Assembly (NCBI GenBank): GCA_028554795.2
Contig: JAPYKE020000575.1
Span: forward strand, 58,412 to 122,411
Length of the DNA: 64,000 nucleotides
Origin: Sinohyriopsis cumingii
Taxonomy: Eukaryota > Mollusca > Bivalvia > Unionida > Unionidae
Reading direction: 5' to 3'
Shown piece after piece: positions 7,912 through 62,983 of the stretch (positions are counted from its first letter, which is position 1; every line of letters starts with the position of its first letter). The notes beneath the pieces were generated by a model that saw only the letters and a list, made by a program, of their open reading frames with translations, had not been told where the DNA came from and did not search any database. Both the position numbers and the translations under genes were made by a program.

Positions 7912-8550
7912 AGTAGTGAAGGGGAGCACTTTTCGGACAATGGGAATTGTATGTACAAAACCCACTGGGCACTTTCGCGGACAAGATTTATACGGACCCC
8001 GTGGGCACGTTTATGGACAAGATTTATACGGACAAAAGGTTGGGCCTGTATACCGACATGGGAAAGGTGCGTTTTTGTATAGGGTTAATATGAATGGAAC
8101 AGGCGAGGTGACGTCACGGAACTGGACATTGGCAACAATGTTGCAAGAGGCTGACCTCAATCGGGCCAAACAGCAAACAGTGAGAGCGGGTAAGTTCAAC
8201 TAGTTCAGCGGGTAGCGGATGGCGGGTAAGCTCAGCTAGTTCAGAGGGTAGCGGGTGGCGGGTAAGTTCAGCTAGTTCATAAACTATATGAAAAATAACG
8301 CTTGACGGGGTGGGACTGGCGGGATATCAATGGATAGACATGTATATAGACATCGGACACATACATAGATTTATGAACATAAAATTATCACACATAAAAT
8401 ATAAAATCGACTATAATGTTTTAGGCAAGAGAGTAAATGTTTTCGAGGCAAACATAAAATATAAAATCGTCTAAAGATTTTTTTAGGCAAGAGAGAAAAT
8501 CTTTTCGAGACAGTGGAGTGACCCTGATAAGGACTTTTGGGTTTCTTGTT
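7912..8550 (+). repeat. Element 1 left terminal inverted repeat
   Basis: It matches the complement of 24,455-25,049 with many substitutions and small indels. Inside are two copies of a GACAAGATTTATACGGAC phrase, about 2.5 copies of a 36-bp GGGTAAGTTCAGCTAGTTCA unit (8,190-8,275) and a palindromic CRE site TGACGTCA (8,109-8,116). The inner end includes the histone-like 3' signal of the outermost minus-strand gene. Confidence 0.85.
8519..8536 (-). terminator. Degenerate histone-type 3' stem-loop
   Basis: On the minus strand: AGTCCT, loop TATC, AGGGTC, then ACTCC and a CTCGAAAAGAT purine element about 13 bases on. The stem is partly decayed, but layout and spacing match the better copies at 9,655 and 55,593. 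It lies at the inner edge of the left TIR. Confidence 0.55.
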
Positions 8551-9585: not shown

Positions 9586-9654
9586 TCCCGTTCCTGACTT
9601 TGTTTTTTTAGAAAACAAACACCCAATGTTTTTTTTAGAAAACAAACACCCAAC

Positions 9655-9694
9655 GGTCCTTTTCAGGGCCATCCACTTCTCTCGAAAAGAGATA
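9655..9694 (+). terminator. Histone-type 3' end signal (stem-loop plus purine element)
   Basis: GGTCCT, loop TTTC, AGGGCC (9,655-9,670; six pairs including one G-T), followed by ATCCA and then CTCGAAAAGAGATA at 9,681-9,694. This is the layout of replication-dependent histone mRNA 3' ends, in which SLBP binds the stem-loop and U7 snRNA pairs with the purine element. Confidence 0.75.
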
Positions 9695-22685: not shown

Positions 22686-22703
22686 CTCCCCGTCTACGAA
22701 AAC

Positions 22704-22745
22704 AACCCTTTTCAGGGCTACCCAACTATTTAGAAAAGAGATACT
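22704..22745 (+). terminator. Histone-type 3' end signal, gene A
   Basis: AACCCT, loop TTTC, AGGGCT, then ACCCA, and a TTTAGAAAAGAGATACT purine element. One A-C mismatch in the stem. Confidence 0.65.
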
Positions 22746-23524: not shown

Positions 23525-23623
23525 ATTGGGAGCAGGACTAGAGCCCGCGATGTGTCTGTGGTGCCAGGCCTGGGTGATATCTATATTAGCCAGTTGCATT
23601 TAGAGATAGAAGAAAGAAAAAAC

Positions 23624-23663
23624 AGCCCTTCTCTGGGCTAAACAAATCTTTAGAAAAGAGACT
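23624..23663 (+). terminator. Histone-type 3' end signal, gene B (variant loop)
   Basis: AGCCC, TTCTCT, GGGCT, then a purine element TTTAGAAAAGAGACT. The stem is kept while the loop differs from TTTC. Confidence 0.55.
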
Positions 23664-24071: not shown

Positions 24072-24440
24072 ATGGCTTCGAACCAGATTGCCGTGATGAA
24101 GACATTACAAGAGGCTATAGACGACCTTGGGATATCAGAGGGATTCGTCATGAAATTGGAGTATGTTGTCTATACTATTCACAGAGCCAAGATGGAGACA
24201 TACAATGCAAAGAAGACTAAGAAAAGATTGAGAGAGCTGCCGAAAAAAGTAAATGAGGACAAGGAGGACGAAGAAGACAGAATAATAATGAAGAAGTGGA
24301 ATGAAAAATTCGAAAAAGGGACAGAAAGAAAAAAGGAATAAAGAGGAGGAGGAGAAACCGGAGAAGGAGCAAGAGAAGCAGAAAAATAAAAAGAACGTAG
24401 AGGAGAAAATAAGAAGTTGGTGGAGGAAACGAAGAGATTA
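24072..24440 (+). pseudogene. Right-arm small gene C (helical, highly charged)
   Basis: ATG 55 bases after the TATA box. An 89-codon frame: an N-terminal helix-rich part (MASNQIAVMKTLQEAIDDLG... to about residue 45) then a Lys/Glu/Asp-rich part ending at 24,341. The charged character continues in a shifted frame to about 24,440, so this copy is probably truncated by a frameshift. It is the outermost plus-strand gene, and its 3' signal lies at the inner edge of the right TIR. No known domain; charged coiled coils of this sort are not diagnostic. Confidence 0.5.
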
Positions 24441-24454: not shown

Positions 24455-25049
24455 AGAGGAAAACCAAATTCCCTTTTCAGGGCCACTTCACTGTCTCGAA
24501 AAGATATGCTCTCTTGCCTAAATAAATGTTTTCGTCGATTTTATATTTTATGTTTGCCTCGAAAACATTTACTCTCTTGCCTACAAATTTGTTTAGTCGA
24601 TTTTATATTTTATGTGTGATAGATTTATGTTCATAAATCTATGTATGTGTCCTATATCTATATATATGTCTACCATTGCTATGTTCCGCCAGTCCAGCCC
24701 CGCCAAGCGTTGTTATTCGTATAGTTTATAAACTAGCTGAATTTACCCGCGACCCGCTACCCGCTGAACTAGCTGAACTTACCCGTCACCCGCCTTTTCC
24801 CCCCGCTCTCACTGTTTGCTGTTTGGGCCGATTGAGGTCAGCCCCTTGCAACATTGCTGCCAATGTCAGGTACCGTGACGTCACCTCACCTGTTCCATTC
24901 CTATTAACCCTATACAAACACAACTTTCCCTTGTCCTTATACAAGCCCAGCCTTTTGTCCGTATAAATCTTTTCAGTAAACGTGCCCAGGTTTTTTTTTT
25001 GTCCATGTAATTCCCATTGTCCGTAAAGTGCCCCTCCCCCTTCACTGCT
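24455..25049 (-). repeat. Element 1 right terminal inverted repeat
   Basis: Inverted partner of 7,912-8,550. It keeps TGACGTCA (24,876-24,883) and the GCTAGCTGAACTTACCCG subrepeats. Its inner end holds the histone-like 3' signal of the outermost plus-strand gene. Confidence 0.85.
24469..24508 (+). terminator. Histone-type 3' end signal, gene C (partly decayed)
   Basis: TTCCCT, loop TTTC, AGGGCC, then ACTTC and CTCGAAAAGATAT. The two outer pairs are lost. It is the TIR partner of the left-hand site at 8,519. Confidence 0.55.
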
Positions 25050-36261: not shown

Positions 36262-36276
36262 GATTGGGTTGTAATT

Positions 36277-36927: not shown

Positions 36928-36941
36928 GTTATTAGAATATT

Positions 36942-37115
36942 ATGGATTCATATTGTGTTAAGTGTCGCACTCGAACTGCTACGATAAATCCAATCGAAGT
37001 CGTTACACGCAACAACAGAAATGCAATTAAGGGAGAATGTGAAGTTTGCAAGACAATTAAGTTTAGATTTGTAAAAAAAAAAGTAGAACCGGAGGAGACA
37101 TCGCAACCTCCTTAA
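36942..37115 (+). CDS. Small zinc-ribbon protein (57 aa)
   Basis: Two CxxC pairs (CVKC at residues 5-8 and CEVC at 33-36) with Arg/Thr/Asn-rich spacing and an IKFRF end make a DUF5679-like zinc ribbon, a small protein often carried by Polintons and large DNA viruses. It shares a 14-bp divergent start region with the ATPase. The end of the gene has a run of ten A (37,073-37,082) that includes the heptamer A-AAA-AAA in the reading frame; slipping back one base there would continue into the phospholipase frame. The short form ends at 37,115 with a Glu/Pro tail. Confidence 0.85.
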   Translation: MDSYCVKCRTRTATINPIEVVTRNNRNAIKGECEVCKTIKFRFVKKKVEPEETSQPP

Positions 37116-41345: not shown

Positions 41346-41376
41346 TATTATATTTTAGACAAATGTTTAAATTATA

Positions 41377-42238: not shown

Positions 42239-42367
42239 TTGAATATCTCCGCAAAACAAAAAAAAAGATTAATTTTGAAAATTTCCCTGGATTTTATTTA
42301 TTTTTTTCCCACGGAGACAGATTTGGAAAATCTCACTTGCGATTTAAAAATCAGGAATCAGAGATTC

Positions 42368-43918: not shown

Positions 43919-44363
43919 TATTAATATTCATTTGTTCAATCTCCGAGTAAATACTAATCATTGAAGAAAATTCTAGATCGGATATAATACCGTCATTAAG
44001 ACTTTCAGAAAGTAGCGATGATAACTTCGAGTATGCGTCATTGATCTTAGCAAGTTTATTTTTGTATGATGATAATTTTTCACTTGTGCACGATGATATT
44101 TTTTTCGCGATGATATTAAGAACACCAGCGATTGTTGTTGTTGACGAGATTATTATTGTTGCTACGATTGGCGCTATCATCGTCACCGCGGATAGAATTA
44201 TTCCTGCACCAGCGACCACAGCAGATACCGCGTACACTGCAACATCAATGATAACTAATTTGCGCTGGTATTTATTTATTTTTGTTTGATAATCGTCAAG
44301 TTGTTTTCGCAACGAATCCTGCCATGATCGCGCCTGATTGTATCGGTAATCCGATGCGGTCAT
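43833..44363 (-). CDS. Two-span membrane protein with coiled-coil ends (176 aa)
   Basis: Two adjacent hydrophobic helices at about residues 37-57 and 59-87 (LVIIDVAVYAVSAVVAGAGI, then IVATIIISSTTTIAGV), a helical basic N-terminus and a helical C-terminal half with SEKLSSYKNKLAKI-type heptads. No known family. It sits between the fibre-like gene and the 516-residue gene, and its end overlaps the latter's start. A virion membrane or entry role is a guess. Confidence 0.7.
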   Translation of the reverse strand: MTASDYRYNQARSWQDSLRKQLDDYQTKINKYQRKLVIIDVAVYAVSAVVAGAGIILSAVTMIAPIVATIIISSTTTIAGVLNIIAKKISSCTSEKLSSYKNKLAKINDAYSKLSSLLSESLNDGIISDLEFSSMISIYSEIEQMNINNVRVSPDRDKHNTADNNVNIAKFNETRV

Positions 44364-44377
44364 TTATTAGTTATTTA

Positions 44378-45673: not shown

Positions 45674-46004
45674 GATATTTATCTACGGTATATTCAAATA
45701 AAATTTTGCGAAAAGAACGAGATGATTTTGAAATTGCATCAAGGACGTTAATTGTCTCCCGGCCGCATATTGGTGGATCTACTAGTGTTTGTGTTGGAAG
45801 TGTTGAATACCAAACCGGAAGTTTTAATTTTGACACATATTTGATAAATTCATTCGGCGGTGCTAATCCGTATGAATCGAAATAGATGATTTCGCGAGGA
45901 TTAATCGCATACGCAACCCAGTGAGTGCCAGGACCGGAATTTTTATCGAGATTTATTATTCCTGTCTCGGTTGAATTTGGTTTGTCCGGTAGTTGATCTC
46001 GCAT
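45666..46004 (-). CDS. Adenain-like maturation protease, short form (112 aa)
   Basis: His28 in GTHWVAY, Asp43 in YFDSYGL, and Cys80 in PPICGRETINVL supply the triad of C5-type proteases. Adenovirus protease is about 200 residues, while this one lacks most of the N-terminal part and the usual aromatic run after the Cys, so it is a minimal version. Gln72 may form the oxyanion hole, at a spacing of 8 rather than 7. It would process virion precursors. It overlaps the fibre-like gene and follows the 174-residue gene at a 53-base gap. Confidence 0.85.
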   Translation of the reverse strand: MRDQLPDKPNSTETGIINLDKNSGPGTHWVAYAINPREIIYFDSYGLAPPNEFIKYVSKLKLPVWYSTLPTQTLVDPPICGRETINVLDAISKSSRSFRKILFEYTVDKYHG

Positions 46005-46057
46005 AAATACGCCTCTAAAAAATTTTATTTTCTTTTTTTTTGCTTCACTGATTAAAT

Positions 46058-46570
46058 CTAAATTTGAGGTTGGTAAGCTCGACTTAACCCGGATCCGTAC
46101 GGGGGTCGTCTTAGGTAAAGGCCGGATCCTTGTCGTTGTTGCTGCGTCATCATTTTTGCGAGAAGAAGGGGTAAGAGAAGTCCGCCCTTTTTTTTACGAT
46201 ATCCCTTTCCTATAATTTTTCCAACAACTTTTCCTGCTATTGCAGAACCCGCCCCACCAAGTGCACCTAATCCTACTGCCTTCGCACCTGCTATTAACGC
46301 TGGTATAAGCGCGGCCAATGGAAAAAAACCACCTACTTTGATCATATCTCTGATTGCACCTATTGAGATATTCAGACGAATACCAGTATTTGCCGATCTG
46401 GCTCTGGTGAAATGTCCGTGTTGATTTTTAGTTAACGATAGTTTGTTAGGTCCACCGTGAAGTTGATTACTTTTCAAAGTTAAACTTAAACCTCGTCGCG
46501 CTGCTGTTGCTGATTGAAGTTTTTTCACCTGACCGGGGGTCAGAGTTACGCTGACGTGATCGTATGGCAT
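46058..46570 (-). CDS. Small basic virion-type protein with hydrophobic Gly/Ala stretch (170 aa)
   Basis: The preferred start is the ATG at 46,570 (MPYDHVSVTLTPGQ), preceded by GATTATTAAT; an upstream GTG is less likely. The N-terminal 75 residues are basic and beta-like (LSLTLKSNQL). Residues about 80-122 are Ala/Gly-rich and hydrophobic (AALIPALIAGAKAVGLGALG), followed by KKK and a Gln/Arg/Gly tail. The design resembles small core or membrane-active virion proteins encoded near the capsid gene in Polintons. The exact role is unknown. Confidence 0.7.
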   Translation of the reverse strand: MPYDHVSVTLTPGQVKKLQSATAARRGLSLTLKSNQLHGGPNKLSLTKNQHGHFTRARSANTGIRLNISIGAIRDMIKVGGFFPLAALIPALIAGAKAVGLGALGGAGSAIAGKVVGKIIGKGYRKKKGGLLLPLLLAKMMTQQQRQGSGLYLRRPPYGSGLSRAYQPQI

Positions 46571-46604
46571 ATTAATAATCACTTTTATCTAAATTTAGAA
46601 TTTG

Positions 46605-48029
46605 TTACATGTTCTCTACGGGCGCGTCAATAACTCTCATTCTACCACTGATACCTTCCAGGATCATTGTTCTATCACTGAGAATTACTGCGAATACCTT
46701 ATATAAATTATTTCCTGTTCGAATTCTAGCTTTGAAATGAATATCGACGACGGATTGCTTTATCAAATCGAGATGTTCCAAGGAAAAGTAATAAATAGGA
46801 TAAAGTTTATTAAAATCTAGTTGTGATATTTGCAATCCAGTATCGATATTTTGATCGCGACCCATGAAACTTAACAATCGATGATATGCGCGAGCTGTCG
46901 AATAATTTTCAAAATTGATGGATATTTCCTCGGATGGCTCCTGTTGGCCATTTACTCTCAGTGACACGTTTGTTGCGCTGATATTATCGAATATCATGTG
47001 GCTATATAATTGATGATATCTTCGTGTATGCAAAAAAGCGACAAAGATATGACGTGGCGCAGAGGTACCTTGCTGCGATGCAATGCGCCAAGTAAAATCA
47101 CCATCAATATCAGTAGTTGTGGAATCTGTTGTTGTTGTTAGCCATGACATGATAGATTTACCACCTTGATTCATAAATGATAATAATTTTTCTTCCACGA
47201 TTAATGATGGAGTCATCGCTGGCATCCACAAGGTAAATTTTAGTAATCTTACCCTACCTCCATGATTCGTGGTATCATTTGCACCTACCACGTTCGTTTG
47301 GTAATTGATATCACCTTCTCGCCAAATAGCATCATTACTATCTGCTTTTCTAATAAATGTTACGGTATGCTTTGCTCCGTAAATAACTTTTCTAAAATGC
47401 CTGCAAAATCCAAATATATGAGATAACGGAATAGCACAAGAGAATTTTCTACGTATATCCCACAACATGGATTTTCTCGTGGCAAATCCAAGATTATAAT
47501 CAGGATTAGTGCCGAGGGGAAGATCTTGGACAGTATTAATAAGGACTGGGGGGGCGGCGCGATCTCTAGGTTGTCCGATATCAAGCGGTCTATTATCAGG
47601 ACGATCAGAATTATCTTTGGCAAACATCATACCCGGACCAGCTGATCTGGTAAAATCATCCGAGTATCTCGCTAGACCTATTATCGTTGTTGCTAAATCA
47701 ACATCATTGGTAATTGACTCAATCTCTTTTCCATCAATCATGTAAGTGGCGCTCTTGAATAATGCCATAATACCGTTATTAACAAATCCGACTCTAAAAT
47801 CTGCTCCATAGAGAGTAACGCCGTCATCTCTAGTAATTTCACCGGTAACTTCGATATATGCCTCAGATGGAAGAAAATATCTTGTTGTATCGTGAACTTG
47901 AATTTCCAGGCGATTATCAGTATTTGGTGTAACTGTGTCGTACGAGAAATACTGAAGATCTCGCATTGATGTGTCTCTACCTACTGGCTCGTCCATGTCA
48001 AACGCTTCATTTGACATTTGTGAAAACAT
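46605..48029 (-). CDS. Major capsid protein candidate, double jelly-roll (474 aa)
   Basis: Length and character fit double jelly-roll capsid proteins: beta-rich with few charges in runs. Recognisable blocks include LEIQVHDTTRYFLPSEAYIEVTG near the N-terminus, IMALFKSATYMIDGKEIE, IPLSHIFGFC near the centre, and a C-terminal block with IKQSVVDIHFKARIRTGNN and KVFAVILSD. This pattern occurs in Polinton-like capsid proteins of invertebrates. It would form the pseudo-hexagonal capsomers. The ATG at 48,029 follows TTATTAATAATA, the clearest copy of the start context seen in this element. Open throughout. It is in the middle of the virion cluster. Confidence 0.82.
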   Translation of the reverse strand: MFSQMSNEAFDMDEPVGRDTSMRDLQYFSYDTVTPNTDNRLEIQVHDTTRYFLPSEAYIEVTGEITRDDGVTLYGADFRVGFVNNGIMALFKSATYMIDGKEIESITNDVDLATTIIGLARYSDDFTRSAGPGMMFAKDNSDRPDNRPLDIGQPRDRAAPPVLINTVQDLPLGTNPDYNLGFATRKSMLWDIRRKFSCAIPLSHIFGFCRHFRKVIYGAKHTVTFIRKADSNDAIWREGDINYQTNVVGANDTTNHGGRVRLLKFTLWMPAMTPSLIVEEKLLSFMNQGGKSIMSWLTTTTDSTTTDIDGDFTWRIASQQGTSAPRHIFVAFLHTRRYHQLYSHMIFDNISATNVSLRVNGQQEPSEEISINFENYSTARAYHRLLSFMGRDQNIDTGLQISQLDFNKLYPIYYFSLEHLDLIKQSVVDIHFKARIRTGNNLYKVFAVILSDRTMILEGISGRMRVIDAPVENM

Positions 48030-48034
48030 TATTA

Positions 48035-48532
48035 TTAATAATATCGTCTAAAACGAAGACCATCACCTGAAGCAAAACTTGTATTTGCTAGATTTGTCCT
48101 AGCAACATCCTGCGCTAGATTTGTATTAGCAACTTCCTGCGCTAGATTTGTTATAGCAGCTTCCTGTGCTAGATCATTTATTTTTTTATTTGCCGCATCA
48201 TTTATGGCCTTACTGACTTCAGGTGGCATTTCGCTGGTAATGGGTAATTTGACGGGTTGCTTTTTACGTACTAAACTTAATATTTTATCTTTGATAGCGT
48301 TGAAGCCTTTACTGGCCAAATTACCGATACCAGAAATGGCAGTCTCGCCGATCTTTCCTATCGCTTTCAACCCAAATTGCTTAATCACGGGTCCAATTTT
48401 AGGTATTACTCGCGTGACAAGACTTCCAACGATATCGCCGAATCCATTACCGTGAATATATTTGTATACTGGCAATCGAGAGTTTACTATGCGGACCTGA
48501 TTAGGTCTGCGCTGATGTTTATGAATAATCAT
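48035..48532 (-). CDS. pVI-like minor virion protein with 12-residue repeats (165 aa)
   Basis: After a basic start, residues about 30-85 form an amphipathic Gly/Ile/Lys-rich stretch (GDIVGSLVTRVIPKIGPVIK, then AISGIGNLASKG), of the kind that disrupts membranes in adenovirus pVI. Residues about 118-155 are three to four repeats of NLAQEVANT. The gene is 5 bases before the capsid gene and 20 after the 604-residue gene. The pVI analogy rests on composition and position, not on alignment. Confidence 0.65.
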   Translation of the reverse strand: MIIHKHQRRPNQVRIVNSRLPVYKYIHGNGFGDIVGSLVTRVIPKIGPVIKQFGLKAIGKIGETAISGIGNLASKGFNAIKDKILSLVRKKQPVKLPITSEMPPEVSKAINDAANKKINDLAQEAAITNLAQEVANTNLAQDVARTNLANTSFASGDGLRFRRYY

Positions 48533-48552
48533 ATTATTTCAATTGTGTTGAT

Positions 48553-50367
48553 TTAATCGATGAGTTCATCGACAAACTCTTTATAAATGTGAGAATCGAT
48601 GATACCACCACGGAATAATCGCTGACAAATATCTGATGCTTCGTTGACTATCTCACGGGAATTATTTCCGGCTCGTTTTCCTCCGATTAATACTTCGAGG
48701 CGAGATACGTCGTTGACAACACTGTCAGGGCAAACTGAATATCCATATCCTTTTCCTTCCTTTTTTGTTTCTGGAGATTCCAATGGCGTTGAGTAAAATA
48801 TTTCGTCTGACGGCGATGAAGATGTCCCTGACGACGATGACTTCGGTGGCAAATCCCCTATAGGACTATCTTGTTTAGGATATTTATCCTTTATAGTAAG
48901 ATATGGGCTTATAGCAGCCTTTTCAAGAGGAGCATATGGTTGTAAAACAGAAACTTCTTCAAGTGATTTTACACGCGGGGGGTATGTTAATTTAGAAATA
49001 AGTTCCTCTGTGGGATTATAAATTTTTTTAGGACTAAACTTTTCAGGACTATCTTGTTTAGGTGTTATTAAAGTTGATAATCTTGCTTTTCCCTCTGATA
49101 ACTTTATTCTGTAATTACCAACATCCGATGAAAATTTCGCAAAATCTTCATCGGAATATCTTACTGGTTTTCCTAAACTACCAAAATACATTATCGCATA
49201 CCAATCAAGTATGTTAACTTTATCAGCATCAAATTCTTTTCGCAAAAAGAATCTTTTATTTTTCGTAGAATCATCCGCAGCTATTTGAACTACTGAATCA
49301 TAGTCGCCAAGTAAATAAAATCTTTTTGGATTCAAATAAATATCCGCTGTTACACTAGGATCAATTTTAAACACACTAATAGCCGGTGATGATACATGTT
49401 CGGGAACAATTATCGGTTCATCACTCTGATCTTTTTTCTTTCTTGATTTTCTTTCTTTTTTCTGTGGTGGAATATCTTCCTTTGGTCTAGCTCCTAATTC
49501 CTCTGGTTGAAATATTGGCTCCTGTGGTTGAATATCTTCCTGTGATGTTTCTTTTCTCCCTCGTTTTTTAGTTTTTTCCTTCTTCTCCTGTTGTTTTCTT
49601 TCTTTTTCCAGTTGTTTTCTTTCTTCTTTTTCCTGTTGTTTTCTTTCTTTCTCCAGTTGTTTTCTGTCTTTCTCCCTTTGCACAATATCTTTTTGTGTAT
49701 CTCTTGCTGTTTCTAAAAATCTTCTGTAACGCGGATCCGTTGTCTTCCTTACTGATGTTGTTTGTGTGTAAATTTTATATACCATATCGTACCAACTATC
49801 GCGAGTTGCATATCTTTTTTTCCCCACTGCAGTCAAAAATTCAGCTCGACTACTAAAATATTCCTCCGCAAATTGGCCAATCTCATCTATATTATACAAT
49901 GTCGAGAGGGGCTGCGATATTATTTCCCATCCCTCATCGGTGAAATTTTCTCTTAAATTATCGATATTAAACTTCCCTTTTATCATTGAGATTTTTCTTC
50001 CTCCCGGTTTTCCACCTCCAGGTTTTCCTCCATCAGCAATTGCAAGTTGTTGCGCCGCTGCTGCTATTGCTAATCGCTCGGGTAATGTTCGTGATTGATC
50101 CTCAATACCTTTCAACATAGGAAAGATTCCACGTTTTCTAGCATCTGGATCTTTTTCGTCGCCATATACAACCTGCTCAATTGTTCCGGTCACTGGCTTC
50201 AACCATTTTGCCGAAGTTTCTGAAATTCCATGTTGCATATCTTCGTAATCACGAACATTTCTCTTAAATAATTGTTTTGTCGGAATGAACTTCTTTAATG
50301 TCGCTAATTGCTCTCGTGCTAATCTGGCCGAATGAGGTTCTCCAACTGTGCTAACTTTTCGACTCAT
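48553..50367 (-). CDS. Unknown 604-aa protein, first gene of the virion cluster
   Basis: Three parts: residues 1-215, helical, with a Gly-Lys-Pro linker near 112-125; residues about 225-330, a very charged Lys/Glu/Gln repeat (KERKQLEKE units) and Pro-rich segments; residues about 335-604, a globular part (DIYLNPKRFYLLGDYDSVV, ILDWYAIMYFG) and a Ser/Pro linker with a final helical block. No catalytic motif. It starts 57 bases inside the right TIR and is transcribed inward. Candidates are a scaffold, a terminal protein for replication priming, or a tegument-like protein; none can be chosen from sequence alone. Confidence 0.6.
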   Translation of the reverse strand: MSRKVSTVGEPHSARLAREQLATLKKFIPTKQLFKRNVRDYEDMQHGISETSAKWLKPVTGTIEQVVYGDEKDPDARKRGIFPMLKGIEDQSRTLPERLAIAAAAQQLAIADGGKPGGGKPGGRKISMIKGKFNIDNLRENFTDEGWEIISQPLSTLYNIDEIGQFAEEYFSSRAEFLTAVGKKRYATRDSWYDMVYKIYTQTTSVRKTTDPRYRRFLETARDTQKDIVQREKDRKQLEKERKQQEKEERKQLEKERKQQEKKEKTKKRGRKETSQEDIQPQEPIFQPEELGARPKEDIPPQKKERKSRKKKDQSDEPIIVPEHVSSPAISVFKIDPSVTADIYLNPKRFYLLGDYDSVVQIAADDSTKNKRFFLRKEFDADKVNILDWYAIMYFGSLGKPVRYSDEDFAKFSSDVGNYRIKLSEGKARLSTLITPKQDSPEKFSPKKIYNPTEELISKLTYPPRVKSLEEVSVLQPYAPLEKAAISPYLTIKDKYPKQDSPIGDLPPKSSSSGTSSSPSDEIFYSTPLESPETKKEGKGYGYSVCPDSVVNDVSRLEVLIGGKRAGNNSREIVNEASDICQRLFRGGIIDSHIYKEFVDELID

Positions 50368-50424
50368 CTTATTTTCAACAATATTGTTTTATTGTGAAAT
50401 AAAATTAGTATCCGCAGTCGGAAT

Positions 50425-50626
50425 TTGCAATCACAAACAAATTTTACAATACCCCCCCCAAAAATGCTGTTTTTTTTATGCCTGAAAATGCACTTTGGGT
50501 TGAAATTTTGCGGATTAATTTGCGTAGGAGGCGTTATTTTTGCTTTCTGAGGCTTCTACGGATAAATGTTTGGTGGGAGGCTTAAATTTATCTGAGCCAC
50601 CTGGTCTGTACGACTTCCCTGCTGCT
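50425..50626 (-). repeat. Element 2 right TIR, 202 bp
   Basis: Exact inverted partner of 36,060-36,261. Confidence 0.95.
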
Positions 50627-51384: not shown

Positions 51385-51618
51385 GGGCCCCGAGTGGCCG
51401 AGTTACAGATCACTGCCATATCACCTCTGTCTGCGTGAGTTCGAGTCTCAGGCTCGGCTAACGTTGGTACCTGAGAAAGCTTGCCAGTAGCTTCTCGTGG
51501 GTCGGTGGTTCTTCCCACGGTTTTCTAGGGTTCTTCCTCCACCAATTATACTGGCCGCCATGTATAGCCTATCTTGTGCTGAAAATGGCGTTAAACCCTA
51601 CAACAACAACAACAACAA
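51385..51618 (+). repeat. tRNA-derived SINE with 15-bp target duplication
   Basis: The direct repeat CAAAGTTCATAAGGG flanks it (51,370-51,384 and 51,619-51,633). The head starts GGGCCCCGAGTGGCCGAG (an A-box-like region of tRNA-Leu/Ser type) and has a B box GAGTTCGAGTCTC; a central region GCTTGCCAGTAGCTTCTCG and a (CAA)n tail follow. Same family as 58,393-58,637. Confidence 0.88.
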
Positions 51619-52639: not shown

Positions 52640-52785
52640 TTTAGAAAGTATTCTTGGAAAATCTTATTTATCTATATTTAGAAAGTATTCTTGGAAAATC
52701 TTATTTATCTATATTTAGAAAGTATTCTTGGAAAATCTTATTTATCTATATTTAGAAAGTATTCTTGGAAAATCTTGCGATTTCT
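52640..52785. repeat. 37-bp tandem repeat, about four units
   Basis: Copies of GAAAGTATTCTTGGAAAATC followed by TTATTTATCTATATTTA; nearly identical. Confidence 0.92.
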
Positions 52786-52889
52786 TGCGTGCTATACATT
52801 ACAAATTGTTTGCTTTGACCTCTCAAAATGGTTGGAAAGAAAGATAATATAGATATCAAAATAAGACGACCCAGGAAATGAACACCGTC

Positions 52890-54015
52890 TTGTAGAAGTT
52901 CAGATAGTGATTATTGATGTCTTTTAGGAATTTAGATAATGATTATTGATGTCTTTTAGGAGTTTATACATTGATTATTGATGTCATTCAGGAGTTCAGA
53001 TAATGATTATTGATGTCGTTCAGGATTTCAGATACTGATTATTGATGTCTTTCAGTATTTCAGATAGTGATTATTGATGTCTTTCAGGATTTCAGATAGT
53101 GATTATTGATGTCATTCAGGATTTCAGATAGTGATTATTGATGTCATTCAGGATTTCAGATAGTGATTATTGATGTCTTTTAGGAATTTAGATAGTGATT
53201 ATTGATGTCATTCAGGATTTCAGATAGTGATTATTGATGTCTTTTAGGAATTTAGATAGTGATTATTGATGTCATTCAGGATTTCAGATAGTGATTATTG
53301 ATGTCTTTTAGGATTTCAGACACTGATTATTGATGTCTTTTAGGAGTTTAGATAGTGAGTATTGATGTCTTTTAGGAATTTAGATAGTGAGTATTGATGT
53401 CTTTTAGGAGTTTAGATAGTGAGTATTGATGTCATTAAGGATTTCAGATAGTGATTATTGATGTAATTCAGGATTTCAGATATTGATTATTGATGTCTTT
53501 TAGGAATTTAGATAGTGATTATTGATGTCTTTTAGGAGTTTAAATAGTGATTATTGATGTCATTCAGGATTTCAGTTAATGATTATTGATGTCTTTTAGG
53601 ATTTCAGATAGTGATTATTGATGTCTTTTAGGAATTTAGATAGTGATTATTGATGTCTTTTAGGAGTTTAAATAGTGATTATTGATGTCATTCAGGATTT
53701 CAGTTAATGATTATTGATGTCTTTTAGGATTTCAGATAGTGATTATTGATGTCTTTTAGGAATTTAGATAGTGATTATTGATGTCTTTTAGGAGTTTAAA
53801 TAGTGATTATTGATGTCATTCAGGATTTCAGATAATGATTATTGATGTCTTTTAGGATTTCAAATAGTGATTATTGATGTCTTTTAGGAATTTAGATAGT
53901 GATTATTGATGTATTTTAGGAGTTTAGATAATGATTATTGATGTCATTCAGGATTTCAGATAGTGATTATTGATGTCATTCAGGATTTCAGATAGTGATT
54001 ATTAAAGTCTTTTAG
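52890..54015. repeat. 31-bp satellite array, about 36 units
   Basis: Unit TTTAGATAGTGATTATTGAT followed by GTCTTTTAGGA, alternating with variants (CATTCAGGATTTCAG). Blocks of two or three units recur in the same order (for example around 53,560 and 53,690), so higher-order duplication has occurred. The array ends at the left edge of element 3. Confidence 0.95.
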
Positions 54016-54022
54016 GAGTAGT

Positions 54023-54235
54023 AAAGGGGGCCACTATAGCCTCAATGGAAATTAGCATTACAAGACCCCCCTGGGCCACTATAGCCTCAATGGAAATTTA
54101 ACATGGAGAAAAACCCTGGGCCACTATAGCCTCAAGGGAAATTTAACGTGGAGAAAAGTCTTGGGCCACTCTAGCCTCAAGGGGATTGAACATGGGTAAA
54201 AAGCATGGGCAACTCTAGCGACAAGGGAAATTGAA
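54023..54235. repeat. Left-end subrepeats of element 3, about five units of 45 bp
   Basis: Tandem units of GGGCCACTATAGCCTCAATG followed by GAAATTTAACATGGAGAAAA and a short spacer. They are part of the presumed left TIR. Confidence 0.8.
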
Positions 54236-54457: not shown

Positions 54458-54490
54458 AAATAATAATTCGGGGTTAGGCAATTGAAAGTC

Positions 54491-54530
54491 AATCTCTTTT
54501 CGAGAAATAGGAGTGGCCCGGAAAAGGGCC
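54491..54530 (-). terminator. Histone-type 3' end signal of left-arm gene, element 3
   Basis: On the minus strand: AAAGGCCCT, loop TTTC, CGGGCC, then ACTCC, and CTCGAAAAGAGATT. The stem has five pairs plus one mismatch at the loop. The AAA before the stem is as in histone genes. Confidence 0.7.
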
Positions 54531-54553
54531 TTTGGATTTATGTTAATATGCCC

Positions 54554-54784
54554 TTAACATAAAGGGCATCTGTGACATCTTCTTGTCCTCAAGCTGCGTC
54601 TTACAGCAGGGCCATACATCAGAGTCCTCTTGAGGCAACCTTGTCTCTCTATGTAGACTCTTTGTATCCACAGACTGCTGGTGGTCCTGTGGACAACGGT
54701 CCACTTGGATCGGACATACATGAGCATGTCCGTCCTGAACATCATTGAAGACACGAGGGTGGAAGATTCAACGTCAGCCCACAT
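54554..54784 (-). CDS. Left-arm small gene (76 aa), unknown
   Basis: MWADVESSTLV start, then a Thr/Arg/Val-rich sequence with two nearby CxxC-like Cys at the end (RCHRCPLC). Homologous to the broken gene at 8,540-8,779. It has its own TATA box on the minus strand (54,831-54,841) and the 3' signal begins 24 bases after its stop. It is open, so this copy could still be translated. No family recognised. Confidence 0.55.
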   Translation of the reverse strand: MWADVESSTLVSSMMFRTDMLMYVRSKWTVVHRTTSSLWIQRVYIERQGCLKRTLMYGPAVRRSLRTRRCHRCPLC

Positions 54785-54830
54785 CTTGCGGCTACGAGAA
54801 TAGGTGAGTGAGTGATTGCACTGAACTGCG

Positions 54831-54959
54831 CTTATTTATAGGGAGAGGAAGGATTGAAACGGATTGAGTTCGTTGACCAATCCAAACACGCGTGACGAAA
54901 TTCAGTCAGTCCGCATCCAATCGGAAGAGAGCAGTCTGTGACGTCACGTGGCCTATATA
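54831..54959. promoter_or_regulatory. Divergent promoter with CRE
   Basis: CTATAAATAAG on the minus strand (54,831-54,841) serves the gene at 54,784; CCTATATAC on the plus strand (54,952-54,960) serves the gene at 55,008. Between them lies a palindromic CRE TGACGTCA (54,939-54,946). Element 1 has a decayed equivalent at 8,930-8,955. Confidence 0.65.
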
Positions 54960-55007
54960 CATTCGCTAGCGCCTGTGCGCTGTCAATCTATGCGACAGTG
55001 ATTCAAC

Positions 55008-55566
55008 ATGACGGAAACTAAGAAAACGATCCATGGGGGTGCACCGACGGTGGATACTACCCAAGGGAACCCGGACTTACTTTCAGAAGCCGTAAACTGG
55101 GATTTTGTGGATTTTCTTACCTCGCAAGAATTTGTTCCATAACCTTCGTTACCATCTTTACCGCACGTGGAGAATTTTCGACAGAGACAGAAAGAAGAAT
55201 TGGAGAAATTTATACAGAGACAAAAGGAAGCAGAACAAGCTTTTCTGCTACAGCAACAGCAGCAAGAAGAAGAGGTAAGAAGAAAAAAAACAGCAAGAAG
55301 AAGAAGAAGAAACAGCAAAGAATCAAGAGGGTGAAAGTCAAACGGTCACGGTACTGTTGGACATTTTAGCGGAGTTAAGAAGTCTGAAACAAATGTATCA
55401 GACTTCTTTATCACGACCGAAGAGAATACGACCTTCCCGAGCTAAACACGCCAACCCTGAGACTAAGCCTACCTTACCACCCTTAGTGATTTCAGCCCAA
55501 TCATCATCATCAAAAGTAGGCCTCGGACGTGGCAAAGGCTTAAGACAGTTAAAGTTGATTGCTTAA
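55008..55566 (+). pseudogene. Left-arm coiled-coil protein gene, element 3, broken
   Basis: The MTETKKT start and conserved N-terminal block are as in element 1. A TAA at about 55,140 and a frameshift in the Gln/Glu/Lys coiled-coil part (about 55,275-55,330) interrupt it. The C-terminal part (from VTVLLDILAELRSLKQMYQ, then Arg/Lys-rich and a GLGRGKGLRQL tail) is open to 55,566. The leucine pattern suggests an oligomerising helix, and the basic tail may bind nucleic acid. Its 3' end lies 27 bases before the best histone-like stem-loop of the window. Confidence 0.65.
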
Positions 55567-55592
55567 ACTCACCCCTACACCAAGAAAATAAC

Positions 55593-55633
55593 GGCCCTTT
55601 TCAGGGCCACCCACTTCTCTCGAAAAGAGATAC
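55593..55633 (+). terminator. Histone-type 3' end signal (best example)
   Basis: GGCCCT, loop TTTC, AGGGCC at 55,593-55,608 (six perfect pairs), directly followed by ACCCA as in animal histone genes, then a purine element CTCGAAAAGAGATACC about 8-10 bases on. The AAAAGAGA core is complementary to the CUCUUUU type 5' end of U7 snRNA. Confidence 0.85.
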
Positions 55634-55845
55634 CATTTCAATTGCCAATAACTCAAAATAACAACCCATTTTACCCCTATAGTACGTGTCTGTGTATGAG
55701 TGCGTGAGTGTAGGTTCTTATTTTAAAATCATAACCCAAAGTCACTTACCATTTATCATTAATGTATTCTGTTATCCATAGTTACAATTCAATTCACAAC
55801 ATAAACGCTCTTAAAAAAGTTCATTCACTTCTTTTGTGTCATTAT

Positions 55846-56288
55846 TTACTCTCTCTGTTTTTTAGATTTCTTCACAGGCTTTTCCTCTTCTTCCTCCTCA
55901 CTTTCTTCCCTTCTTCTTTTCTTCTCCTGTTTATTTTTCTTCACCTGTCTGCTTTCTTCCTCTTCTTCTTCCTCTTCTTTCTCTGAAGAATCCCTCTCTT
56001 CTTCTGACTCCTCTTGTTTTTTTTGGGGGGGCAATCTGGAGACCAATGTCCTTTTTCTTTACAATAATAACAGGTATCTTGACTTTTGTCTCTTTTAACC
56101 CCTGTTTTTCTTTTTTGACGGTCTGGACACTCTGAAGACCAATGCCCTTTCTTTTGACAGATATAGCAAGTATCTTCGCTTTTATCTCGAAAGGAAGGAG
56201 AGTAGTCCGAAGGCTGGTCTGAAGAGAATTTTCTAATGACCCCTCGCAACGCTCTGATGAAACGTTCCATCTGGCTAGTCTCTTCCAT
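55846..56288 (-). pseudogene. Double CCHC zinc-knuckle protein, element 3
   Basis: From the ATG at 56,288 (MEETSQMERFIRALRG). Two perfect CX2CX4HX4C knuckles: CYICQKKGHWSSEC and CYYCKEKGHWSPDC. Straight after the second a run of seven G and eight T (about 56,024-56,038) marks a frame change; the Lys/Glu-rich acidic tail is open in a neighbouring frame to 55,846, and the element 1 copy continues in that acidic frame. So this copy has a homopolymer slip, or the slip is functional or an assembly error. Its TATA box is at 56,343-56,351 (minus). Binding to single-stranded nucleic acid is expected for the knuckles. It is divergent from PolB. Confidence 0.7.
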
Positions 56289-56375: not shown

Positions 56376-58392
56376 TAGCTCATGGTGTTTAAACTTGAGT
56401 CATTTGAATTTTTGCTTTCAAGATGAAACGATCTAATTCATTTGAGAAGAAAGAAGAAGAAGAAAGTAAGAGGCAGAAACGCGATCTATCACCTCGTACC
56501 AGAGCTGAAGTCTTGGCACAAATTCATGCCAGTGATTTTGAAGACGACATGAGTGAACCAGAATCCAAGCCCTCTCAACCAAGTTCACCGCCCTTAGTTA
56601 ACCCTGACAAATACTATTCCATTCGAGAGACAGAAAAGCGCTCCTCTAGAAAATTTAGAACCACGGCTTACACCTACACGGTGAAGTTTAAAGATTTCAA
56701 GTCCGAAGTACCCTTAGAGAAAGCAGAAGGGTTCATCACCGAGATGTGGGATTCTTAGTCACCGCACTCAAGCGACAATGTCAACCCAAAGAAGACGATC
56801 ACTTGACACTATCCATACAACACGATGGTTTGAAGTCCCCTGTTTGGATCGAGTTTAGCAGACCCACAGAACTGACCCCTTCCAAAGTCATGGACAAGAT
56901 ACAACAGGTGCAACAATCCAATGACCAGTTTGACATCACCGATGGAAAAGCCACACTGAAAATGGCTCACGTCTCTCTTCCTCAAGGGACTGGACGCAAA
57001 AAGATGTTATTGGTGAACGATCTTCGCAGCATTAAGTGTAGCCTCGTCCAAATTTACAACCCTCATGACCAGATGTGTTTAGAACGGGCTATGGTGGTGG
57101 GGCGAACCTATGCCAACGAGAACGACACGGCAGAATGGAAAAAAGCCTGGAAAACTATTCGACAATCGGACCGAGCCAAACAACGAAACGAAGCAGAACT
57201 CCTGTTACAACAAGCGGGCCTGTCCAAAGACACACCCTGTGGCATTCCTGAAATGCAAACATTGCAAGATGTCCTAGCTCCACGTTACACCTTGAAAGTG
57301 CACCCTCAAGAAGTGCGCGGACCTCTGTTGTTTCGAGGCCAAGATTTAAAGGATGGAAAATACATTCACCTTTATCATCACGATGACCATTTCGATACCA
57401 TTACCAATATCACTGGATTCCTGGGATACAGACATTACTGTGAGAAATGTGACCGTGGTTATAATAATCGAGAGCAACACAAACATTGCGGATGCAAATG
57501 CTCAGGATGTTTGGCCTCTCCACCCTGTCTGAGCGAAGGACCAGTGCCTTGTTCAACTTGTCTGCGCACGTTTGTCAGCCCTACCTGTTACCAACAACAT
57601 TTGAAGACGCAAGGTTCACAGCAGAAATGTGCTTGTCAACTGCTGAGATTGTGCCCTACGTGTGGACAAGGCATACGTACCAATAATGCCAAGGCACACG
57701 TATGTTCAGGAAAGAAAAAATGTCACATTTGTCACCACATCGTGGACTTGGAACATCAATGCTACGTGCAAAAATACCAACCAGAGAAAGAGGATGGTCA
57801 CAAAAATGAAAAAGGCAATTTCATCTTTTTCGATTTCGAATGCATGCAAGAGACCGGCATTCACATTCCTAATTTCTGTGTGGCTCATCAAGCGTGCGAC
57901 AAGTGCATTCAAGAACCTATTTTCAGTCATTGCCCTCACTGCAGCAAGATTCCTGGAGGGCGTGAAAAAAATCTTTCGGGGACCGAACACGCTAGCCGAT
58001 TTTGCCCAATGGGTCTTAGACCCCATCGACAAGACGCGGAGCCAAGAGGACATCGAACGTTACGGAGATTGTCATCGACATGCCACGGTGATGGCTCACA
58101 ATTTCTCCGGATACGATGGACAGTTTCTTTTGAGGCATTATACGGAACAAGGCACCGAACGACCTAAAGTGACTTTGAACGGAGCCAAAATCATTTCCTT
58201 GCAAGTGGGACAAGTACAGTTTAAAGATTCCATGAGTTACTTGGCCATGCCTTTGAGTCGAATGCCCAAAACGTTTGGAATGACAGAAATGGCTAAAGGG
58301 TATTTTCCACACTTTTTCAATACGGAAGCCAATCAACACGCCGTTCTACCCCATTTGCCTGAGGCTAAAGATTACGACCCCGACAACATGGG

Positions 58393-58637
58393 TTGTTGTT
58401 GTTGTTGTGGGGTTTAACGCCATTTTTGAGCACGATGGGCTATACATGGCGGCCAGTATTAATGGTGGAGGAAGAACCCGGAAAACCCCGGAAAGAACCA
58501 CCGACCCACGAGAAGCTACTGGCAAGCTTTCTCACATGCCCACATTGGCTGAATCTTAGACTCGAACCGCCGCAGACAGAGGTGAGATGGCAGTGATCCG
58601 TAACGAAGAGCGCTTTAGACCACTCGGCCACTCGGGG
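58393..58637 (-). repeat. tRNA-derived SINE in PolB, 15-bp target duplication
   Basis: The perfect direct repeat CCCCGACAACATGGG flanks it (58,378-58,392 and 58,638-58,652). It is inserted in minus orientation: the tRNA-like head with A box (GGCCGAGTGGTCTAAAGCG) and B box (GGTTCGAGTCTAAG) is at the right, and the (CAA)n tail, seen as GTT repeats, at the left. Confidence 0.95.
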
Positions 58638-60710
58638 CCCCGACAACATGGGTACCGAACAACGAGAAGCTTTCTACGCTTGGTACCAGGCTCACGCCTC
58701 GGACCCTTTCGACTTTCAGGAAGAAATGCTAAAGTATTGTCGTTCCGACGTGGACATTTTACGGCGTTGCTGTGGAAAATTTCGAGAACTGTTCATGGAA
58801 CACGGAGGGGTCGATCCTTTGAAAGAAGCTTGCACCATTGCCAAAGCGTGTTTCTTAGTGTACAGACAAAGATTCATGCCTGAAAACACCGTGGCGGTCA
58901 TCAGTCCTCAAACGACCAACTATGTCAAACGTCAATACTCGGTCAAAGCCCTACGTTGGTTACATTACTTGTGCGACAAGGAAGACAAATGGATTCAGCA
59001 TGCCCGCAACGGAGGAGGCGAAAAGACCATTGGAACGCATTCGGTAGATGGCTGGGACTTAGAAAACCCCAAGATCGTGTACGAGTTTAACGCCTGCGTA
59101 TTTAAAGGATGTCCCGTCTGTTACCCTGACCGTAAAACTAAAAATCAGTTTCTACAACGAACCATGGAAGACTTGTACCAGGCCACTTGTCAGCGACGCC
59201 TAAAGTTAGAACAGGAAGGATACCAAGTGGTGGAAATGTGGGAACACGAGTACGATCACCGTTTGAAAACCGATCCTGAGTTTAAATGTCTCGTGGAAAG
59301 TTACAAGCTGGTGGACCCACTGAACCGGAGAGATAGTTTGTACGGAGGAAGGATCAATGCCACCTGTTTGATGTACCAAGCCGACGAAGAGAAAGGAGAA
59401 GAAATGAAATACTTGGACGTGTGTTCGCTGTATCCCTACGTGTGCAAATATTGTCGCTTCCCTGCAGGGCACCCACAATTGTTCACGGAACACATCGACC
59501 TAAAAAACATTCGACAATACGAAGGCTTGATCAAGTGCAAAGTTTTGCCTCCCACGGACTTGTACCATCCCGTCTTACCTCACCATTGTCAAGGCAAACT
59601 GATGTTTCCTTTGTGCCGAACTTGTGCCGAAACGTGCAACCAAGACCAGCCTTGTCAGCACACCCAGGAAGAACGGGCCTTGGCGGGGACCTAGGTCAGC
59701 GTAGAATTGTTCAAAGCTCTGGACATGGGATACCAACTGTCAGAAGTGTACGAAATTTGTCACTTTCCCAAGACACAACAATACCACAAGGGTGACCCCA
59801 CGCAGAAAGGGATTTTCGCAGACTACGTGGATGCTTTTTTGAAACTGAAACAAGAAGCCAGTGGCTATCCGTCCTGGTGTCACACTCCCGAAGACCAAAA
59901 GGCATTCAAAGAGAAATACTATGCACAAGAAGGCATCTCTTTAGACCACATCGAGAAAAACGAAGGCAGGCGGTCGTTTGCCAAAGTGATGTTAAATTGT
60001 TTGTGGGGCAATATGGCACAACGTCCGTGTTTACCCAAGACGGAGTATTTGACTGAACCTTCCCGCTACTTTCAGATGATTCACGACAAAACCAAATACA
60101 TGAAACACGTGGACGTCGTTCGCGAGGATTTGATTTTGGTCAATTACGAAGAAGATCTGGACTTTGTACAAGACGACCCTTTTGGAAATGTCATCATTGC
60201 AGCTTACGTGACAGCTCATGCTCGCTTAAAACTGTACGAAGCTTTAGAACTGTTAGGGGAACGCGTCCTGTACTTTGACACGGGCAGTTGCATTTACATC
60301 CATCACCCGAGTCAACAGCACCCTGACATCGAAGGAGACCGTTTAGGAGCCTGGACAGACGAACATCCCGACGACAAGATTCTAAGTTTCGCCAGTGGTG
60401 GTCCTAAAAATTACGGTTACGAATATCGGGATTAACAAGGAGAAGTGCACACGCAGTGAAAGTGAAAGGATTAACTCTGAATTATCGTACCAGTCGAGTG
60501 GTGAACTTTGGGGTATTGAAAGAAGCCTTGCAGTCTGGAGAGGACGAACACTTTAAAGTGACCACCTATCAACCGAACAAGATTGTACGTCTACCCACTC
60601 ACCACATCGTCAGTCGACCCTTGCAAAAAGTCTATCAAATCGTGTACCAGAAGCGAGTGCGACTTCCCAATCATTTCACCTTACCGTATGGACACGTCGG
60701 TATTGGTCTG

Positions 60711-61233: not shown

Positions 61234-61949
61234 ATGGCTACTTCTACTGTCTCTGCTCCCTCTTCCTCCACTGTCAAAGTCATCGACGAACACTTAGATC
61301 GTACCAGTTGGGAGGCTTTGTATCTTCGTCATCCCTTTAACATGCTCATTGCTGGACCTAGCGGTTCAGGCAAAACCGAATTTGTCAAATGTTTGATCGA
61401 ACATAAACATCATTTGATCGATCGACCACCTCAACGCATCGTGTGGTGTTACAAAGAGTGGCAATCGGCATACAGCCTCTTGCGAGAAAGTCAAGGCGAT
61501 TCCATCGTGTTTGTGGAAGGCATTCCTAAAGAAGGCGATGGCATCGTCTCTGACTCCCGTCAAACCCATTTGGTCATTTTTGACGACATGTTAGGAGAAG
61601 ACGAAGAAGAAATTAAACTGTGGTTCACGAGCAAAGGGCATCACCGTAATGCCAGTGTCGTTTACATCACTCAAAATTTGTTTCAACAAAGTAAAGCCCA
61701 TCGCACCATCAGTCTCAATGCGCATTACGTGGTCTTGTTTAAAAGCCCTCGAGATAAGTCTTAGCCAAACAGTTAGGAACGCCTTGGCTGACTCAGGCGT
61801 ACGACGATGCCACTCACACTCCACACGCCTATTTACTCGTCGATTTGAAACCTACGACCCCCGAGGATTTGCGATTTCGTACCCACTTGTTTCACCACTG
61901 GTGCCAAGATGGAGGGCCTGTCCTGTACACGTCTCCGTCCTCGACTTAA
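61234..61949 (+). pseudogene. Genome-packaging ATPase (FtsK/HerA type), element 3, one frameshift
   Basis: The preferred ATG is 61,234 (MATSTVSAPSSS), after the TATA box; open sequence extends upstream but without support. Walker A GPSGSGKTE at about residues 43-51 and Walker B HLVIFDDML (about 61,567-61,593), then VYITQNLFQQ. The frame meets TAG at about 61,762. The C-terminal block (about 61,835-61,949) with LKPTTPEDLRFR follows in a different frame, so a single small indel near 61,755-61,765 splits the gene. It has no sequence closeness to element 2's ATPase beyond the family motifs. Confidence 0.85.
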
Positions 61950-61966
61950 CTTCATTCCACAAAAAA

Positions 61967-61975
61967 TCTATAAAA
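61967..61975 (+). promoter_or_regulatory. TATA box for the 62,016 gene
   Basis: CTATAAAAA 41-49 bases before the ATG. Confidence 0.6.
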
Positions 61976-62015
61976 ACCTCAGACCCTTTTCGTCTATCTC
62001 ACACACAGTGTGAAC

Positions 62016-62983
62016 ATGACGTCCCTTCAGTCGCATCTTCCCGTCAAATTGATTCGTGCCTTGTACGGCATCAGTCGAGAAAAAACTCCACAAATACGAG
62101 CTGGTGTCTTAGAAGCTAGTCTCAAAGAAGTCTTACGATGGTTCACGGTGACGGCACGTCAATTACTCCAAGGGATCATTCAGATTCCTCATCAAACCAA
62201 ACGCTTTTTCGATCGAAACAAAGTCGCTTTAACCCAACTGGCCGATCCCCGCATTGACACTCAAACCAAAAAACAAATCATTTTGAAACCTGGAGGGAGC
62301 GGTACTCTAGGAGGGGTCATCATTTGCTCTCTCTTAAGATGGGATCCTAATGCTCCCAAAGTTTTCCCCAAGACAAAAAAAGCAGTCAAACGAAGCTCCA
62401 AGAAGAAAAAGAAAAAGACCAGGTCCCCAAAAAGACCCGTGTCTGCAAGAACTTCTCCAGTGGCGGGACCCTCCTCTTACCAGACACCACCCGGAAAAAG
62501 AAAAGAAGCCCTCAGAAAAAGAAACAGAGAAAAAGTCCCCAGAAAAAGAAAAGCCCACAGAAGAAAACTAGTTGCAAGAGAGGCACTTCGGCCAGGACGC
62601 AACCTTACACTCGCAAACCACGACCTGCCACGGCAGTGACTGCGTCTCCGGTAGCCTCAGGTTCCATCACTTCTCCGTTGATGTCACCAAGAACCGAACA
62701 GTACTTGGAGACGTTGATCACACCAAGAACTTCTCCGTTGATGACCCCAAGAACTTCCCCAGTGGCAGGACCATCCAATTTCGCAACAGTGGCTGCGGCT
62801 CACAAAGTACCTGCTCCCAAAGTCAAAGTCCAAGAAAGATCGGGCATGTTACAAAGTTTACTGGATTTGTCCAAGCAAGAACTGGCTCGATTTAGTCCGT
62901 TGCGTACCCCTCCACGACGTGTCATGCCTGTCCTCAAGTTGATACGACGTCAAGACAATCAGTGGCGACGCGTTCCAGTATAA
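62016..62983 (+). pseudogene. Basic, Lys/Ser/Pro-rich core-type protein, frame changes
   Basis: The ATG at 62,016 (MTSLQSHLPVKLIRALYGI) follows the TATA box. The N-terminal 110 residues are helical (LLQGIIQIP, a GGSGTLGG hinge, IICSLLRW); a basic Lys/Arg/Ser/Pro tract follows (from about 62,380), then, in a different frame, a Ser/Thr/Pro-rich region with repeats of TPRTSP and a helical C-terminal block to TAA at 62,983. The low-complexity tract holds at least one frameshift. Composition fits a DNA-condensing virion core protein. Element 1 keeps only the first 35 codons. Confidence 0.55.

Follow-up and report, generated by a model that had tools for sequence, protein, structure and literature searches.

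Introduction

Can genes that encode no histones, and that belong to a mobile element, end in the signals that mark the 3' ends of histone mRNAs? The question is raised by a 64-kb stretch of DNA from Sinohyriopsis cumingii (the window), where the original prediction placed such signals on the two outer left-arm genes of a Polinton-type element. In passages of PMC7026596, PMC9756948 and PMC6303110, the pathway is described as one in which SLBP binds the hairpin, the U7 snRNP pairs through its CUCUUU core with a purine-rich element, and cleavage takes place about 5 nt past the stem; the AAAGAG/CUCUUU pairing and the position of ACCCA ahead of the cut are given in PMC7026596. The gene ends analysed here share with metazoan replication-dependent histone mRNA ends the stem, a TTTC-type loop, an ACCCA-type flank, GAAAAGA at 13 nt and a short distance from stop codon to stem. 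They differ in that the genes are not histone genes and lie in a mobile element, and that their processing is a prediction.

The presence of histone-type 3'-end signals on Polinton genes is close to certain. The reading developed below, in which we have high confidence, is that five small genes of the element family have come to depend on the 3'-end pathway that the host uses for its replication-dependent histone mRNAs.

Three Polinton-type elements

The window holds three Polinton-type elements, numbered 1 to 3. Element 1 extends from about 8.0 to 25.0 kb and has terminal inverted repeats (TIRs) at both ends, the left one at 8002-8545 and the right one at 24988-24459, which are 85.6% identical over 549 nt. 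Element 2 (36060-50626) is bounded by 202-nt TIRs that are 100% identical, and element 3 starts near 54.4 kb and has its right end beyond the window. Elements 1 and 3 are of one kind: in pieces, the left arm, PolB and the downstream genes of one can be aligned with those of the other at 75-87% DNA identity. Both are decayed, with broken frames in several genes.

DNA polymerase B (PolB) of element 3 is present as broken pieces on the plus strand (56890..60435), three of which match Pfam DNA_pol_B_2, two over the cut-off and one below it (best E 9e-21). It is followed on the same strand by a partial A32-type packaging ATPase (61234..61764; Pox_A32, E 2.5e-8, over the cut-off). A zinc-knuckle gene (55941..56288, minus strand; zf-CCHC, E 1.9e-13) lies convergent with the left plus gene. 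The integrase may be represented in element 1 by a chromodomain piece (E 9e-6), and Pfam gave no rve match among the broken core pieces; penton-like and protease-like pieces, recognised by eye, gave no Pfam match either. Elsewhere in the host genome, the gene order of the PolB region is the same as in the window at three loci (L038-L040), as is the order of the integrase-region pieces at a fourth (L041). Elements 1 and 3 are members of a multicopy Polinton/Maverick family with PolB, an A32-type ATPase, a putative chromodomain integrase fragment and penton-like and protease-like pieces.

Besides an rve integrase and an A32-type ATPase, element 2 encodes a protein of 990 aa that has an AAA/helicase domain. 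It resembles elements 1 and 3 in the ATPase and the TIRs, and perhaps in the integrase, but no PolB was recognised in the pieces tested, no histone-type end is present, and there is no DNA match to element 1 or element 3.

The ATPase of element 3 has 416 relatives, one of which was found in a MAG of Thiodiazotropha, a symbiont of lucinid clams. No ATPase relatives were found in the prokaryote genomes searched, and the viral contigs searched held no relatives of the PolB or ATPase queries.

Seven histone-type 3' ends

Histone-type gene ends occur seven times in the window, twice in element 3 and five times in element 1, and in every one of them exactly 13 nt separate the stem from GAAAAGA. The clearest lies at the end of the left plus gene of element 3 (55588..55631, plus strand) and consists of a 5' flank, the stem-loop GGCCCT-TTTC-AGGGCC (55593-55608), ACCCA and the downstream element (HDE) GAAAAGAGAT at 55622-55631. 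A scan with the Rfam model of the histone stem-loop, RF00032, which the original prediction had proposed, returned a significant match at this site (36.4 bits at 55588-55632; cut-off 34; E 6e-7 for the whole window). The end of the left minus gene (54492..54535, minus strand) has the stem-loop GGCCCT-TTTC-CGGGCC at 54530-54515 and GAAAAGAGAT at 54501-54492, and scores 25.7 bits with RF00032 at 54490-54535, below the cut-off, with E 1.9e-4 in a 2-kb search and 0.006 in the whole window. Both left-arm genes of element 3 thus end as predicted. The predicted wording, a GGCCC(T) stem with a TTTC loop and an ACCCA-like flank, fits the plus strand as it stands, but for the minus strand it left unmentioned a T-C mismatch at the loop-closing pair and the flank ACTCC. 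It was also too narrow in extent, given that the signal lies on three right-arm genes of element 1 as well.

The sites of element 1 were scored with a model, R1, built from the seven window sites with no histone gene included, and with RF00032. The left minus gene ends in a decayed stem (8497..8540, minus strand, site 8535; R1 54.5 bits, RF00032 14.0 bits) and the left plus gene at 9650..9693 (plus strand, site 9655; R1 63.2, RF00032 29.0). The right-arm ends, all on the plus strand, lie at 22699..22742 for right gene 1 (site 22704; R1 60.2, RF00032 20.8), at 23619..23662 for right gene 2 (site 23624; R1 54.6, no RF00032 match) and at 24464..24507 for the outermost right gene 3 (site 24469; R1 56.9, RF00032 13.6). 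The last retains four of six stem pairs and is the mirror copy, within the TIR, of the site at 8535. RF00032 alone therefore leaves three of the seven window sites below 15 bits or unmatched.

Could such sites arise by chance? A strict scan for the hairpin followed by GAAAAGA recovered six of the seven (8535 was missed), and 60 order-2 Markov shuffles gave a mean of 0.05 matches and a maximum of 1. A looser scan discriminates poorly, because 20 order-1 shuffles already gave one to seven places as against ten in the window, four of these ten having no 13-nt spacing. R1 scored the seven sites at 54.5-64.9 bits, the upper value belonging to the element 3 plus site, and the next place in the window at 13.5. 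Against circularity, leave-group-out profiles were trained without the homologous group of the site being scored. They gave 31.5-51.1 bits to the seven sites and at most 9.8 to the best other window place; the minus site of element 3 reached 43.4 against 9.8, and site 23624, which RF00032 does not match, reached 34.9 against 1.2. Chance origin is rejected by the strict-scan shuffles, the R1 scores and the leave-group-out profiles. Stem covariation within the seven window sites alone was not significant.

Two further sequences accompany the HDE: UUUCAAUUG is located downstream of GAAAAGAGAT, and TTTCAATTGCC is conserved closely 3' of GAAAAGAGAT in many copies (55630-55643 and equivalents).

The genes that carry the signal

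The signal follows five non-histone genes, namely a divergent left pair and three right-arm genes; R1 found no further site in the window, hence none on the core genes present or on element 2. In element 3, the left minus gene has a 76-aa open frame (54554..54784, minus strand) whose stop lies 23 nt before the stem, and the left plus gene (55008..55566, plus strand) has its stop 26 nt before the stem. The window copy of the latter is broken by one stop and one frame change. The protein appears by eye to have a coiled coil and a basic C-terminus. Elsewhere, 7 of 13 copies of the gene have an uninterrupted frame of 183-193 aa that starts at the ATG and whose stop is 19-27 nt short of the stem; the median pairwise dN/dS over 21 pairs is 0.51. 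The pair shares a divergent promoter region (54785..55007), 74% identical to that of element 1, in which TATA-like and CCAAT-like motifs can be seen by eye. On the right arm of element 1, the first open frame of right gene 3 has 89 aa (24072..24340, plus strand). The stop codon of an open frame of 30 codons or more is located 18-31 nt ahead of the stem at six of the seven window sites and 43 nt ahead of it at 9655; several frames qualify at some sites.

The plus-strand site has 91% identity between elements 1 and 3, and its gene 74%; for the minus-strand site and its gene the values are 77% and 58%. One right and one left outer protein piece had no database relatives, and the right outer protein gave an AlphaFold model whose mean pLDDT of 54.7 is too low for use.

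The two outer sites of element 1 form the inner edges of its TIRs, the hairpin of the left minus gene on the left and that of the outermost right gene on the right; therefore both outermost genes read outward into a shared signal, shared because it sits in the terminal repeats. This placement lends some support to the idea that a cassette derived from a host histone 3' end now serves mainly as a generic terminator or in a DNA-level role of the TIRs, in replication or packaging, and not through SLBP and U7. The signals at left plus, right 1 and right 2, however, lie at internal gene ends in sense orientation, and in the window the signals stand 18-43 nt past stop codons. A DNA-level role would, moreover, need neither ACCCA nor GAAAAGA nor the 13-nt spacing of the host histone genes, and we regard such a use as unlikely beside use of the host's histone mRNA pathway.

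Other types of gene end may coexist with the histone type. R1 found no histone-type end on the zinc-knuckle gene. Of three 10-kb regions with left arms, L038 and L040 have AATAAA downstream of this gene and L039 does not; the elements may thus use histone-type ends on some genes and poly(A) on others. AATAAA also lies 36 and 121 nt past the stem at two of the seven window sites, which makes a poly(A) fallback possible there.

Right genes 2 and 3 have a common upstream motif, TTTTCCTTCACGTCCG and then GCTT, ahead of a TATA-like box (22960-23040 and 23980-24040). Since they share this motif, duplicated promoter-gene-terminator units are suggested for the two genes.

Comparison with host histone genes

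The host genome gave 114 histone H4 matches, mostly at intervals of about 8.3 kb in tandem arrays. Twenty histone loci (L057-L076) were taken for comparison, with histone identities confirmed by tblastn in three of them. Their H3 and H4 genes end in GGCCCTTTTTAGGGCC, found in 19 and 20 loci respectively, and their H2B genes in GGCCCTTTTCAGGGCC, found in 19 loci, followed in each case by 13 nt and GAAAAGA. The host H3 and H4 are 100% identical to animal H3 and H4 sequences, and H2A had no match in the three loci checked by tblastn. In these three loci (9,927 bases), R1 scored the H3 end at 52.9, the H4 end at 36.7 and the H2B end at 56.1 bits, with nothing beyond these ends at E<=1. In hairpin, 13-nt spacing and GAAAAGA core the Polinton gene ends thus match those of host H3, H4 and H2B, and the 3'-end signal of the elements is of the type that the host has on its histone genes. 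The signal probably originated from a host histone 3' end and later spread within the element.

So close a match could also be expected if the hairpins were relics of a histone gene cluster captured by the element or lying beside it, and the left pair is divergent, as many histone gene pairs are. Pfam found no histone family in ten outer-gene pieces, among them the 76-aa left minus frame, and tblastn with H2A, H2B, H3 and H4 matched in none of the 15 Polinton regions tested (a set apart from the first 30 loci), in line with the earlier statement that the encoded proteins are not histones. The relic explanation fails because the histone genes lie elsewhere, in arrays, and are absent from these 15 regions. 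Five different genes, besides, carry the signal in dozens of copies, and the frames of one of them run open to just before it in the 7 of 13 copies noted above. A captured cluster, which the original prediction had named as a possible refutation, is itself refuted as a description of the present state, and relics of one are a very improbable source of the hairpins; the element's own genes remain the bearers of the signal.

The host arrays have about 8.27-8.29 kb per unit and are spread over many small contigs; by a count made by eye, 109 of the 114 H4 matches run over the full length with 100% identity to the probe.

Copies across the host genome

The host assembly searched has 2.905 Gb in 1,138 contigs. 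RF00032 gave at least 75 matches in it, spread over many contigs, and all 75 that were scored (among 589,472 candidates) exceed the cut-off; the 36.4-bit site of the window is not among the matches listed. In the control genomes only 1 of 14 had a match, which was below the cut-off. The loci examined cover 45 of the 75 listed matches, as 30 loci and 15 regions, and homologues of element 1 or 3 proteins were found in 42 of the 45 (28 of 30 and 14 of 15). The remaining three (L022, L024 and L053) had no protein match and have hairpin flanks of the right-arm type.

In the first 30 loci, the gap between stem and HDE was 13 nt at 57 of 57 sites, with gaps of 9-17 allowed and none preferred. The loci examined and the window together contain 98 distinct sites, of which 96 have a gap of 13 and 2 a gap of 14. 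The filter behind this count required 10 or more of the 16 stem-loop letters, 6 or more of the 7 HDE letters and a gap of 11-15, with preference for 13 on ties. The loop is TTTC in 94 and the flank ACCCA in 76; 81 have six pairs, and the outer stem pair, G-C in 67 sites, has become A-T in 23 through a compensatory change. Hairpins stand on all three right-arm genes at L041, where right gene 1 has, by eye, a gap of 14 nt.

Hairpin conservation is inflated in these figures because the genome loci were retrieved by RF00032, and only 16 partner sites escape this bias. These are the partner hairpins of left arms that had been retrieved by the other hairpin, located from the coding flank after exclusion of BLAST matches ending more than 40 nt short of the gene end; at the fixed offset, every one of the 16 shows five or more pairs and six or more of the seven HDE letters. 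The hairpins of the retrieved copies are 95-100% identical in each of the four classes of gene end. The 200 nt upstream are less conserved (65-85%) in three classes but reach 93-94% at left plus, and in the left plus copies the signal is hardly more conserved than the gene (hairpin 96%, HDE 93%, gene 91-94%).

The 98 strong sites would also suit copies that act as decoys, titrating SLBP and U7 and disturbing the host's histone supply, with coding output secondary. A decoy requires neither a gene nor a short stop-to-stem distance, though, and the signals here belong to genes that evolve under constraint and have kept their frames open in many copies, so that we consider decoys exceedingly improbable and continue to favour signals that serve the genes they follow.

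The hairpin with its HDE was also sought outside animal genomes. Hairpin patterns occurred in three and one of the viral contigs with no GAAAAGA following, and the combination was found in none. The prokaryote genomes gave three matches to hairpin plus HDE, which were rejected for having no RF00032 support at E<=0.01.

Proposed processing and mechanism

Each of the five genes has, usually about 20-30 nt past its stop codon, a 6-bp stem closed by a TTTC loop; a flank of the ACCCA type comes next, and GAAAAGA lies 13 nt past the stem. By analogy with the established pathway, SLBP would bind the hairpin, the U7 snRNP would pair with GAAAAGA(GAT), and the CPSF73 complex would cleave about 5 nt past the stem, leaving mRNAs with no poly(A) tail whose synthesis, translation and decay would follow S phase. 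Processing of these ends as in histone genes is very likely on this analogy, and coupling of the genes to S phase is likely. The messages would probably be histone-style, free of poly(A) tails and tied to cell division, because the hairpin, the downstream signal and the spacing equal those of the host histone genes. The benefit to the element may lie in the copying of its own DNA, for which a bulk supply of protein during host replication would be of use. The full form of the reading, a five-gene regulon of non-polyadenylated, SLBP/U7-processed, S-phase-only mRNAs with the signal within the terminal repeats themselves, goes further and is considered reasonably likely.

Pairing with U7 was compared with shuffled sequences. 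Against the published human U7, 50-349 of 500 shuffles paired as well as the seven HDEs, which are thus not clearly better than shuffles; against the fly U7 the result was mixed, with 1-65 of 500 shuffles as good. At the two element 3 sites, the predicted duplex with fly U7 takes in the downstream UUUCAAU, which recurs in many copies, and since fly U7 starts with AUUGAAA, TTTCAATTGCC may extend the pairing. The host U7 was not found among 65 scored of 801,960 candidates, and the controls were likewise silent.

Relation to known elements and significance

With Polinton/Maverick elements and adintoviruses the family shares TIRs, PolB and the A32-type ATPase, together with protease-like and penton-like pieces recognised by eye and perhaps a chromodomain integrase fragment; what sets it apart are five accessory genes with histone-type ends. 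No mobile element or DNA virus is known to us that sends protein-coding genes of its own through the processing route of histone mRNAs, and this family would be the first. The earlier statement that no Polinton with such signals had been described holds for the open-access papers covered by the searches, among which no description of histone-type 3' ends on Polinton, adintovirus or other viral genes turned up, but needs one amendment, since PMC12220804 counts six matches to the 'histone 3'UTR stem-loop' (RF00032) in 8,300 Polinton-like and virophage genomes. These matches appear there as a count, and in the ncRNA section no host, gene, HDE or function is attached to them. Passages of PMC8363768 describe adintoviruses with no such signals, and passages of PMC11071296 mention proteins resembling histones from other animal viruses but no 3' ends.

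Since this set of signals was taken to be used almost only by replication-dependent histone genes, its full presence on five non-histone genes would, if the reading is true, break that rule. A genomic parasite would then couple its expression to S phase at the RNA level, and there would be an explanation of how Polintons might keep their expression in step with the replication of host DNA. The predicted transcripts are non-polyadenylated, and such expression may have gone unseen so far because poly(A)-selected RNA-seq would miss them.

Further features of the element copies

Some structural features of the copies were also observed. At position 13616 of element 1, sequence like 58638-58921 is joined directly to sequence like 61835-62117 (element 3 coordinates), an internal deletion of about 2.9 kb that takes in the end of PolB and the start of the ATPase. 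A dispersed repeat lies within the PolB of element 3 (58392-58640); it recurs in inverted orientation at 51402-51616 (87%) and, in part, at 30858-31013 (79%). A long tandem array of 32-nt units (52766-54100), located immediately beyond the left arm of element 3, is possibly a degenerate terminal region of that element. At L038:1-2700, two left arms stand head to head with about 800 nt between them, an arrangement that could represent either a replication-intermediate junction or two neighbouring insertions.
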